From Acidimicrobiia bacterium (lineage in GTDB: Bacteria; Actinomycetota; Acidimicrobiia; Acidimicrobiales; Poriferisodalaceae): DNA of 63,636 nucleotides. The stretch covers positions 1-63,636 of the forward strand of contig DUBN01000038.1 of NCBI GenBank assembly GCA_012960315.1. The letters are read 5' to 3'. The notes under the pieces were generated by a model that was given only the letters and a program-made list of their open reading frames with translations, ran no database searches and was not told the origin of the DNA. Below are positions 36,043 to 62,617 of this stretch, piece after piece. Both the position numbers and the translations under genes were made by a program. Numbering within the stretch: position 1 is the first letter of the stretch; each line of letters opens with the position of its first letter.

Positions 36043-36272
36043 GTCGAACTTCCTCTCTTTACGTAGGTTTTAAAATTTAATAGTGGCAATAGGTCCTGTG
36101 GATTGTGGACAATAGGGTGAATCCGCTGGTCAATCATTGTTTCTTTATCGACACTACTGTCCACCGCTGCCCACAGGGAACCCCGCTGCGTAAAGAAAAC
36201 TCTTGATTTCTGTGGATAAGTCGAAATTGTCCACGAGGTCTCCACAATGCCGTCCAGAACCTTATCCACGGC
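36043..36272. promoter_or_regulatory. oriC: Likely chromosomal origin (oriC): DnaA-box cluster in the dnaA-dnaN spacer
   Basis: 230 bases with several DnaA boxes: perfect TGTGGATAA at 36211-36219, TTATCCACG at 36262-36270, TGTGGACAA at 36104-36112 and TTGTCCACG at 36227-36235, plus weaker TGTGGATTG at 36097. An AT-rich stretch TTTTAAAATTTAATAG at 36068-36083 is a candidate unwinding element. The dnaA-dnaN spacer is the known origin in mycobacteria and Streptomyces. Boxes occur in both orientations. Confidence 0.8.
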
Positions 36273-58749: not shown

Positions 58750-58821
58750 GGGCGCTCCAATGGCCGAGGCTGTTGTCAGAAAGACGACAGATTCATTGAC
58801 ATGGTCCACGAAGGAGGAGCC

Positions 58822-59739
58822 ATGGCACTTGATTCCGCCATCGAAGTATTGGATCCACGCTTCTACGGGCTAGTCATTCACAATGCGCATGTTGATCACC
58901 TATGGACAGGCGCTCGCTGGGCAGAGGGACCCGTGTATGTCCCGAGTGCCCGCCAAATTATTTTTTCGGACATTCCCAACGACCGGACCCTTCGGTATGA
59001 CGAACGAACGGACCTAGTCGACATATTCGACCAACCTGCATTTAACGCCAATGGGCATTGTCTGGATCTTCAAGGTCGAATAATCACCGCCGAACATGGC
59101 GGACGATCCGTAACCAGGATTAATCATGATGGGATTCGCCAAGTTCTTGTTGAGCGATACGCAGATAAAAGGCTCAATTCACCGAACGATGTCGTCGTGA
59201 AATCAGATGGCAGTATTTGGTTCAGTGATCCCACCTACGGCATCGATAGCGATTATGAGGGGCATGCGGCAGAATCTGAAATCGGTGCTTCGTATGTGTA
59301 TCGGTATGGTGCTGATGGCACATTAGAGGTCGCGGTTTCCGACATGGTTCGCCCCAACGGCCTCGCATTTTCGCCAGACGAAAAAACTCTTTATGTTGCG
59401 GATACAGGGATCTCACACGTCGGCGTAAGCTGCCCGCCCGATATCCGCGCATATGACGTATCCGCTGATGGGCGAACGCTAACCGGCACCTATTCGACTT
59501 TTGCAACATGCACCGTTGGTGTGTTTGACGGTTTTCGTGTCGATCACAAAGGAAACGTTTGGACGTCGGCCGGTGATGGGGTGCATTGTTTCGCGGATGA
59601 TGGCAAGTTGATTGGGAAAATCAGGATCCCTGAAGTCGTCGCGAATGTCGAGTTCGGTGGACTCAAGAGAAACCGCCTGTACATATGCGCTACAACTGGT
59701 CTCTATTCGATGTATTTGAACACGCGTGCCACGCGTTGA
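58822..59739 (+). CDS. SMP-30/gluconolactonase family protein
   Basis: A 305-residue six-bladed beta-propeller hydrolase: WAEGPVYVPSARQIIFSDIP (metal-binding Glu), NSPNDVVVKSDGSIWFSDPT, ADTG and VFDGFRVDHKGNVWTSAGDG (catalytic Asp). Family members hydrolyse sugar lactones. The start at 58822 has AAGGAGG four bases upstream. With the next gene it lies between rplI and dnaB, which are adjacent in many genomes. Confidence 0.9.
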   Translation: MALDSAIEVLDPRFYGLVIHNAHVDHLWTGARWAEGPVYVPSARQIIFSDIPNDRTLRYDERTDLVDIFDQPAFNANGHCLDLQGRIITAEHGGRSVTRINHDGIRQVLVERYADKRLNSPNDVVVKSDGSIWFSDPTYGIDSDYEGHAAESEIGASYVYRYGADGTLEVAVSDMVRPNGLAFSPDEKTLYVADTGISHVGVSCPPDIRAYDVSADGRTLTGTYSTFATCTVGVFDGFRVDHKGNVWTSAGDGVHCFADDGKLIGKIRIPEVVANVEFGGLKRNRLYICATTGLYSMYLNTRATR

Positions 59740-59802
59740 GAAACGTAACTTGTGTGAAGCGAAGTGCCGCGGTGCGCGATGCTGTAGGCGGAGAAAGAAA
59801 TT

Positions 59803-61044
59803 ATGACGACTGTTATCCCGGCACCTGACGCAAACAATGAATGGCGGCTGAACACCCCTGGGTCATCGGGGTGGGAGCGTTCGCCACGTCCCGGTGCACA
59901 GAACAAATACTTCATGGTGTCAACGGATGGTCATGCTCAAGAACCCAAGGACCTCTGGGCGACCCGAATCGACGAGAAGTATCAGGAACGTTTGCCTGGA
60001 GTGATTATTGGGATGAAAGGTGAAAAGTTCCAGAAAACTGAAGGGTTTCGTAGTCCTCTAAAACTGAACACCATTCAGTTCGAGGGACAAGATCTGCTTC
60101 GCAATAAAGCGGGCTACACCCCAGAAGCACGAATCGCTGATCTTGCCGCTGATGGGACCGACGCTGAGATCATCTTCCCGAATAAAGGCCTCACTATGTG
60201 GGCTACTAGTGACCCCGAGTTCAGCCACGCGATGTGTCGCGTCTATAACGACTGGGCGTGGGAAACTTTTGGTCCACACAACGACCAGTTAATTTCTATG
60301 GCTTGCATTGCGCCTGCTGGTCTTGACAATGCGATCACTGAAATTCAACGTTGCGCGGAACTTGGGTTTAAGGGGCTACAACTTCCAAGTAAACCCATCT
60401 GGGGTGCCCCAGACCATGAGGCTTTGAACTACAACCTCAAAGAGTTTGATCCCTTATGGGCAGCGATAGTGGAGGTCGATTTACCGGTGACCTTCCATAT
60501 CTCTACTGGGCGAGATCCTCGGACTGCCCGTAGTAGAGGTGGCGCGGTCATCAACTACGCGGTGCATTCACTTGCACAAAATATTGAACCGATCGCTAAT
60601 CTCTGCGCTTCTGGAGTAGCTGAGCAATTCCCGACATTGCGATTTGGAAGCGTCGAAGCTGGCATTGGATGGGTTCCATGGGCCATCCAAGCTATGGACG
60701 AGGCCTACCTTAAACATCATTGGGCGGTAAGGCCCAAGCTGGACTTGCTACCTAGCGAATACTTCAAACGCCAAGGTTTCGCGACTTTTCAAGAAGACGC
60801 AGCTGGGTTGGATTTAGCTCTGCGCCATGATTTGGTTCCCAATTTCATGTGGGCGAATGACTATCCGCATCACGAAGGATCGTGGCCGCATTCTGCGGAA
60901 GCGATTGAGCGGACAATGGGGGAGTTGGACGATGCCAGCCGGGCGAAAATGTTGGGATTAAATGCAGCTGAAGTCTTCAAAATCCCAATTCCGGAACGGT
61001 ATTTGGATCATTTGGACGCGCGAGAAAGCGCTGCTCGGTTCTGA
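59803..61044 (+). CDS. Amidohydrolase family 2 (TIM-barrel metal hydrolase/decarboxylase)
   Basis: A 413-residue amidohydrolase_2 protein: VSTDGHAQEPKDLWA at the first metal position (DxH-like D-G-H), AGYTPEARIADLAADGTDAE, LPVTFHISTG with the metal histidine, and the late ANDYPHHEGSWPHS aspartate segment. ACMSD-type members act as decarboxylases or lactone hydrolases; next to an SMP-30 lactonase a role in lactone or aromatic-acid breakdown is conceivable. Confidence 0.88.
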   Translation: MTTVIPAPDANNEWRLNTPGSSGWERSPRPGAQNKYFMVSTDGHAQEPKDLWATRIDEKYQERLPGVIIGMKGEKFQKTEGFRSPLKLNTIQFEGQDLLRNKAGYTPEARIADLAADGTDAEIIFPNKGLTMWATSDPEFSHAMCRVYNDWAWETFGPHNDQLISMACIAPAGLDNAITEIQRCAELGFKGLQLPSKPIWGAPDHEALNYNLKEFDPLWAAIVEVDLPVTFHISTGRDPRTARSRGGAVINYAVHSLAQNIEPIANLCASGVAEQFPTLRFGSVEAGIGWVPWAIQAMDEAYLKHHWAVRPKLDLLPSEYFKRQGFATFQEDAAGLDLALRHDLVPNFMWANDYPHHEGSWPHSAEAIERTMGELDDASRAKMLGLNAAEVFKIPIPERYLDHLDARESAARF

Positions 61045-61143
61045 TAGAAGCTGATTTCAGGACAGAATTTCGCACGACGCGAGAATTATGGAACGAACGG
61101 CTCTAACAAGCTCAGCGATGCGGCCCGTCACCTAGCTGTCATG

Positions 61144-61176
61144 TTCTGTGGATAACTACCCTAGTTATCCACAGAA
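61144..61176. promoter_or_regulatory. Palindrome of two perfect DnaA boxes upstream of dnaB
   Basis: TGTGGATAA at 61147-61155 and TTATCCACA at 61165-61173 face each other inside a perfect 15-bp inverted repeat with a 3-base centre (CCC). It ends about 62 bases before the dnaB start. No U-tract follows on either strand, so it is not a normal terminator. A DnaA-binding operator is the best explanation. Confidence 0.8.
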
Positions 61177-61237
61177 AATGGTAACTAAATCCCCAAGGTC
61201 TGCCCCTAGTTCTACACATGAGTCATCTGAGAGACTG

Positions 61238-62617
61238 ATGGCAATGAGCAACGACCTTTCTTTTAATCCACCACCAGCTAACTCCAATGGGCGGGTGCCG
61301 CCGCACAATGTCGATGCGGAGGCGTCTTTGCTAGGAGCAATGCTTCTCTCACGTGATGCCATCGGCCCTGCAGTCGAAACTCTTAGTGGTGACCAGTTCT
61401 ATGTGCCAGCACATGGGTACGTGTTCGACGCAATTGCTTCGCTGTATGGCGCGGGAGAGCCAGCGGACCCAGTGACGGTTGCCGAAGAACTCACTAGGGC
61501 AGGTCTCCTCGAACAGGTGGGCGGTCCTCAACGCCTGCTTGAGTTACAAATGTCTACGCCCGCCGCATCTAATGCTGCCCGGTACGCGCTCATTGTGGAA
61601 GAACATTCGATGCTTCGTCGGCTCATTGGGGTAGCTGGCGACATAATGGAATTGGGGTACAGCCGACCGGAAGATGTAGTCAAAACCATCGATGAAGCCG
61701 AAGCGATGATGTTCCAAATCGCGGAACGTCGAGTGGTGGACAGCACCAAACCCATTCGCGAACTACTTGACGCCAATCTTGATCGTCTAGAGGAGTTATA
61801 CGAACAGGGCAACGCGATCACGGGGCTTCCCACCGGTTATGTCGACTTCGACGAACTTCTTTCCGGGTTGCAACCCAGCAACCTCGTTGTTGTTGGCGCT
61901 CGCCCTTCTATGGGTAAGACAGCATTCGCTCTTGGAATGGCTGCAAACGCTGCGCTTGAAGCACAACGTCCCGTCTTGTTCTTTTCTCTGGAAATGGGTC
62001 ACCTTGAGTTAACTCAGAGGCTTCTCTGTTCGGACGCTCGAGTTGACTCTCAGAGAATGCGAAACGGAAATCTTTCCGAAGATGACTGGCCCAAAATAAC
62101 GCGAGCAGTTGGCAAGCTTGGTGAAGCCCCAATATGGATTGACGACAACCCAAACTTGACGGTAATGGAAATCCGAGCGAAAGCCCGGAGGCTGAAGAGT
62201 CGGCTAGGAGACCTTGGGCTGGTTGTCGTTGACTATCTGCAACTAATGAGTGGTAGGAGGAATGCTGAAAATCGTCAAGTTGAGGTTTCGGAAATGTCTC
62301 GTGGCTTAAAGATCCTCGCTCGTGAACTTGAGACACCCATAGTCGCGCTATCGCAGCTCAGCCGCGGGCTTGAGTCGCGAACCGATAAACGGCCCATGCT
62401 CGCAGACCTGCGAGAGTCTGGATCTATAGAACAAGACGCTGACGTCGTTGCTTTTCTATATCGAGATGAGGTGTATAACCCTGAGTCACCTGACATTGGG
62501 TCGGCTGAAGTCATTGTTGCGAAACACCGCAATGGACCTACTGGCACGGTTCGACTTGCTTGGCTCAGCAATTACACGAGATTCGCGAATATGAGCCGCT
62601 ATCAAGACCCGGCCTAA
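61238..62617 (+). CDS. dnaB: Replicative DNA helicase DnaB
   Basis: A 459-residue hexameric helicase. The N-terminal domain starts RVPPHNVDAEASLLGAMLLS; the RecA-like motor has Walker A GARPSMGKTAFALGMA, Walker B LVVVDYLQLM and LRESGSIEQDADVVAFLYRD. No intein is inserted. The start at 61238 (or 61244) is chosen because upstream codons fall in the DnaA-box palindrome and are not family-like. Loaded presumably with DciA (33527-33847). Confidence 0.96.
   Translation: MAMSNDLSFNPPPANSNGRVPPHNVDAEASLLGAMLLSRDAIGPAVETLSGDQFYVPAHGYVFDAIASLYGAGEPADPVTVAEELTRAGLLEQVGGPQRLLELQMSTPAASNAARYALIVEEHSMLRRLIGVAGDIMELGYSRPEDVVKTIDEAEAMMFQIAERRVVDSTKPIRELLDANLDRLEELYEQGNAITGLPTGYVDFDELLSGLQPSNLVVVGARPSMGKTAFALGMAANAALEAQRPVLFFSLEMGHLELTQRLLCSDARVDSQRMRNGNLSEDDWPKITRAVGKLGEAPIWIDDNPNLTVMEIRAKARRLKSRLGDLGLVVVDYLQLMSGRRNAENRQVEVSEMSRGLKILARELETPIVALSQLSRGLESRTDKRPMLADLRESGSIEQDADVVAFLYRDEVYNPESPDIGSAEVIVAKHRNGPTGTVRLAWLSNYTRFANMSRYQDPA

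Follow-up and report, generated by a model that had tools for sequence, protein, structure and literature searches.

Directly upstream of dnaB, the gene for the replicative DNA helicase, the window (by which we mean the whole 63,636-nucleotide stretch of Acidimicrobiia DNA that was analysed) carries a perfect inverted repeat, TTCTGTGGATAACTA-CCC-TAGTTATCCACAGAA, at 61144-61176, with 15-bp arms at 61144-61158 and 61162-61176 and its CCC centre at 61159-61161. The repeat bears two exact TTATCCACA DnaA boxes, one on the minus strand (61147-61155) and one on the plus strand (61165-61173), in divergent orientation with their TTAT ends pointing at each other. Direct reading of the sequence confirmed the initial annotation on this point, as it had described two exact boxes in an inverted repeat with 15-bp arms and a 3-base centre; its placement of the site just before dnaB also holds, and its distance of 62 bases needs correction, as we measure 61 bases from the end of the palindrome to the dnaB ATG (61238). 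The identity of DnaA was confirmed by NCBIfam TIGR00362. The features of the region are the following.

36043-36272, no strand assigned: oriC, the dnaA-dnaN intergenic region with a DnaA-box cluster that includes a divergent pair (36211/36227)
61137-61142, plus strand: TGTCAT, putative -26 element of a PafBC-type promoter, assigned from the layout
61144-61176, no strand assigned: inverted repeat with CCC centre bearing the divergent DnaA-box pair, kept as TTCTGTGGATAA-N9-TTWTCCACAGAA in 17 relatives
61147-61155, minus strand: DnaA box 1, exact TTATCCACA, invariant in 18 of 18 aligned loci
61153-61158, plus strand: TAACTA, putative -10 element, offset by 16 from TGTCAT and sharing TAA with box 1
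61165-61173, plus strand: DnaA box 2, exact TTATCCACA (TTTTCCACA in some relatives), 8 of 9 columns invariant
61187-61195, plus strand: weak DnaA-box-like 9-mer AAATCCCCA (6/9), 22 bp from box 2, kept in relatives, with in-phase enrichment across families
61199-61207, plus strand: possible very weak 9-mer TCTGCCCCT (4/9), 34 bp from box 2, in the same register and singly unconvincing
61210-61218, plus strand: weak DnaA-box-like 9-mer TTCTACACA (7/9), 45 bp from box 2, kept in relatives
61238-62617, plus strand: dnaB, replicative DNA helicase (NCBIfam TIGR00665, E 3.2e-169)

Two apparently metabolic genes, judged by eye to be SMP-30/gluconolactonase-like and amidohydrolase-like, lie between rplI and dnaB (58801-61044); in many relatives rplI and dnaB look directly adjacent.

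Seven exact boxes are present in the window where 0.39 would be expected, and 16 exact TTATCCACA boxes in the whole 2.82-Mb genome. The pattern TGTGGATAAN{0,30}TTATCCACA, that is, two boxes with 0-30 bases between them, occurs once in the source genome, and the exact pair is found in 12 of 61 genomes, as one copy each, always upstream of dnaB and nowhere else. This restriction to dnaB, together with the excess of boxes over expectation, argues that the site is not a product of chance. As a separate observation, 7 of the genome's 16 exact boxes fall within the 63-kb window around oriC, at positions from 36211 to 63419, and several of those in the window are intragenic by position (rnpA, parB, dcd).

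The association with dnaB extends well beyond the exact pair. In a set of 73 dnaB loci from Acidimicrobiia and close relatives, the 200 bp preceding dnaB contain 65 exact TTRTCCACA boxes in total, and about 306 kb of sequence upstream of these stretches contain none. A phylum-wide sample of 40 genomes gave 48 boxes with at most one mismatch in 10 kb close to dnaB, versus 11 in 40.5 kb farther upstream; in this sample several actinobacterial families have box clusters before dnaB and other families have none. In 18 colinear loci column identity is 1.00 for box 1 and 0.95 for box 2, versus 0.70 for the centre and 0.53 far upstream; the flanks TTC and GAA are almost always kept, and the 9-bp centre between the boxes drifts in sequence and is 8 bp long in one genus. 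The initial annotation had proposed a search for conservation upstream of dnaB in relatives and named its absence as the outcome that would speak against the site; the result is clearly the opposite, with the pair site conserved across genera and DnaA boxes before dnaB conserved across the order. Two features of a DnaA-controlled dnaB promoter of the mycobacterial type, high-quality boxes directly upstream of dnaB and their conservation across related genera, are thus both present.

We analysed the arrangement of the boxes in 46 representative loci having a strong box. Reverse-strand partners occur at offsets of 17 (5 loci) and 18 (8 loci), 13 of the 46 in all, and any other offset is found in 0-1 loci: the partner box occurs at a single distance, 17-18 bp. 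Downstream of the strong box the DnaA-box-like score peaks at about 11-12, 21-24, 32-35 and 42-45 and drops between these positions; the in-phase minus anti-phase score is 4.39 bits, whereas 540 other box-like anchors give 0.22 (bootstrap maximum 1.87); leaving out the window's clade gives 4.41. In a register-specific test 13 of 1000 permuted consensus motifs equalled the in-phase signal, so that part of the register is general sequence periodicity; a plain amplitude test of periodicity is weaker (34 of 500 permuted motifs). Weak boxes trail the strong box toward dnaB in an 11-12 bp register. The sequence, conservation, uniqueness, spacing and register of the site are established by these comparisons. 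The arrangement favoured by E. coli DnaA in vivo is a different one, with boxes on one strand and 2-3 bp between them (PMC11317965), and the divergent pair with its 9-bp spacing at dnaB does not match it, which speaks against DnaA action at the site. The dnaB leader at 61187-61230 (AAATCCCCAATGTCTGCCCCTAGTTCTACACATGAG in relatives, loci L002-L019) is almost unchanged across genera, which exceeds the needs of weak DnaA boxes alone. An open frame from GTG 61148 would make this leader coding, a reading that is not favoured because one relative (L018), read by eye, has an in-frame stop before the dnaB start and lacks the ATG.

The region upstream of dnaB also has the layout of a promoter. The motif TGTCR-N11-TANNNT precedes dnaB in 26 loci, many of them from close relatives, so that the figure is not a count of independent events; only 0-3 loci have the two halves at any other gap in the range scanned (5 to 19), and the background rate of the motif is 0.004 per 300 bp. 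The layout spans the order and two mycobacteria-like genomes, and the source genome follows it with a putative -10 element, TAACTA, that deviates from TANNNT at its last base. We take TGTCR-N11-TANNNT to be the consensus of the RecA-NDp (PafBC damage-response) promoter. Neighbouring WYL-domain genes (PafB/PafC-like), one with the PafC HTH, are present in the source genome. PafBC reads a -26 element together with sigma A (PMC11804915), and induction of M. tuberculosis dnaB is reported to be partly PafBC-dependent (PMC8151990). From its anatomy this promoter would start transcription at about 61164-61166, at the edge of box 2. The putative -10 element overlaps box 1 in the window's clade, and DnaA bound there would be expected to mask the core of the promoter; among other families, 20 of 20 loci have their boxes downstream of the promoter-like motif. 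A sigma-70 scan found no E. coli-type promoter. A resemblance to an MtrA site (GTCACA) was also considered and set aside, as the constant spacing of 11 bp before TANNNT is better explained by a PafBC promoter. Separately, 7 of 73 loci, from certain Acidimicrobiia and other actinobacteria, have LexA/SOS-box-like palindromes upstream of dnaB (versus 0.036 expected per 300 bp per locus), among them those at -154 (L070), -117 (L108), -114 (L106), -137 (L084) and -55 (L158) from the dnaB start; that of L070 is an exact TCGAACACATGTTCGA.

Several other explanations of the palindrome deserve consideration. RNA from 61140-61182 is predicted to fold strongly (z -7.9), as would be expected if the repeat were a hairpin or terminator in the dnaB leader with an incidental match to DnaA boxes. 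We consider this very improbable, as no T run follows the stem, a terminator scan finds none at the palindrome, and an Rfam search returned only tRNAs; furthermore, 17 relatives show no pairing covariation beyond shuffles, 7 of these 17 break a central pair (TTATCC to TTTTCC) without a compensating change and inner pairs are lost, and distant relatives retain DnaA boxes without the palindrome. An intrinsic terminator or structured RNA was therefore rejected on the lack of compensatory change, T run and non-tRNA Rfam match. As box sequence and spacing are kept and pairing is lost, the conserved entity is two protein-binding boxes at a fixed distance and not a stem. Such boxes could in principle mark a secondary replication origin, and the grammar at dnaB is indeed oriC-like: a divergent pair is likewise present in oriC of this genome (36211/36227) and its clade, at offset 16, and same-strand boxes follow one another there at steps of about 11 bp. 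The oriC boxes are, however, poorer matches to the consensus than the two at dnaB, and oriC occupies the dnaA-dnaN gap, where GC skew is lowest. The cumulative skew minimum, at 34-36 kb, and the switch in gene strand both fall at dnaA-dnaN, while the dnaB site lies at 61 kb and so is not, as a chromosomal oriC is, a box cluster at the skew minimum beside these genes; no AT-rich unwinding element is seen in its sequence, and the boxes follow dnaB across the order. A second origin here is thus exceedingly improbable. These positions also put the site 25 kb from oriC (36043-36272), and the initial annotation was mistaken in calling it far from the origin.

Proximity to oriC would suit a site for titrating or recycling DnaA, similar to datA or DARS, that lies beside dnaB by coincidence, and opposed boxes followed by same-strand boxes do recall the core of E. 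coli DARS1 and DARS2, where oppositely oriented strong boxes are likewise combined with same-strand boxes (PMC8682772, PMC5742627). DARS elements have boxes I and II convergent and box III on the strand of box II at fixed spacing, and the dnaB site was rejected as a member of this class: DARS1 has 5 bp between its convergent boxes (TTATCCACT-N5-TGTGGATAA), whereas the dnaB boxes are divergent with 9 bp between them (TGTGGATAA-N9-TTATCCACA), and DARS1/DARS2 have no tie to dnaB and function in the release of ADP from DnaA. Identity with datA was rejected as well, since its essential boxes all point in one direction and are accompanied by an IHF site (PMC5742627), and the strong dnaB boxes are opposed. 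Two strong boxes are also few for titration, and the site keeps its position relative to the dnaB start throughout the order and has no copies elsewhere, so that titration or recycling is improbable. The initial annotation had offered either DnaA control of helicase supply or a titration/regulatory locus; the regulatory role it foresaw is supported, and direct control of dnaB is a better fit than mere titration, given that the site keeps its place at dnaB and overlies the putative promoter.

We consider it probable, for the proposed mechanism as a whole, that the site upstream of dnaB is a DnaA operator that ties helicase supply to the initiator cycle and to replication stress. We infer DnaA binding in the source organism, a member of an uncultured lineage, as well as the position of the promoter and the sign of control. 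Two DnaA molecules would occupy the divergent pair of predicted high-affinity boxes, and ATP-DnaA would then spread from box 2 over the weak same-strand boxes every 11-12 bp toward the dnaB start, in a small version of the oligomerisation grammar of oriC. In the window's clade the pair would cover the putative -10 element and transcription start of a sigma-A promoter of the PafBC type, and DnaA should therefore compete with RNA polymerase; abundant active DnaA would damp dnaB transcription, and helicase supply would thereby be coupled both to the initiator cycle and to replication stress. Such occlusion of the promoter core leads us to favour repression modestly over activation. DnaA might instead activate dnaB, with the bound pair recruiting or stabilising RNA polymerase so that helicase rises with active DnaA. 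The M. tuberculosis DnaA variant I282T shows reduced binding at the dnaB promoter and uniquely has lowered dnaB expression (PMC7738170), and Caulobacter dnaB was assigned to the DnaA regulon by delayed dnaA transcription (PMC8203912), both of which would be expected of an activator. An overlap with the putative -10 element and start point in the window's clade is unusual for activators, as are boxes downstream of the promoter-like motif in the 20 loci of other families, and we regard activation as the somewhat less likely sign.

Binding of DnaA upstream of dnaB has precedents. It was detected by IDAP-seq in M. tuberculosis and by ChIP-seq in M. smegmatis (PMC7738170); in these mycobacteria the site, at the same gene and in the same phylum, is one of only five high-affinity DnaA regions and is bound in vitro and in vivo. 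The perfect divergent pair with its 9-bp centre and the putative -10 overlap are features of the window's clade, and the likeness to the mycobacterial site is one of gene and DnaA binding. The DnaA-bound region Rv0010c-Rv0011c of M. tuberculosis also contains a palindrome of two DnaA-box-like sequences, 65 bp ahead of a start codon (PMC7738170), but it belongs to a different gene. Caulobacter dnaB has predicted DnaA boxes upstream and responds to delayed dnaA transcription (PMC8203912, citing Hottes 2005); this phylum is distant, and the likeness is one of gene and predicted boxes, not of site architecture. Since DnaA binding before dnaB is already known from mycobacteria, what appears from our sequence analysis to be new is the partner spacing, the phased weak boxes and the PafBC-like promoter layout; the literature searched, of partial coverage, yielded no description of a fixed divergent pair, a phased array or a PafBC-type promoter overlap at dnaB.

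Little is known about whether cells match their supply of helicase to DnaA, the initiator, and an order-wide conserved site with fixed spacing and register provides concrete bases to mutate. The fixed register predicts that ATP-bound oligomers are the form of DnaA that should matter, and the similar layout in two mycobacteria-like genomes, together with proven mycobacterial DnaA binding before dnaB, makes the idea testable in a laboratory strain such as M. smegmatis. More tentatively, in Acidimicrobiia and other Actinomycetota the promoter of dnaB may be an old integration point, in which an oriC-like DnaA array overlies a PafBC-type promoter (LexA-boxed in some lineages) and the amount of helicase answers both to the initiator cycle and to signals of replication stress. 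As for the dnaB gene itself, in nine relatives (G037, G038, G039, G041, G047, G049, G055, G057 and G059) the DnaB matches are split at about residue 228 or 404 within open frames of 715-1478 aa, a pattern suggestive of inteins.
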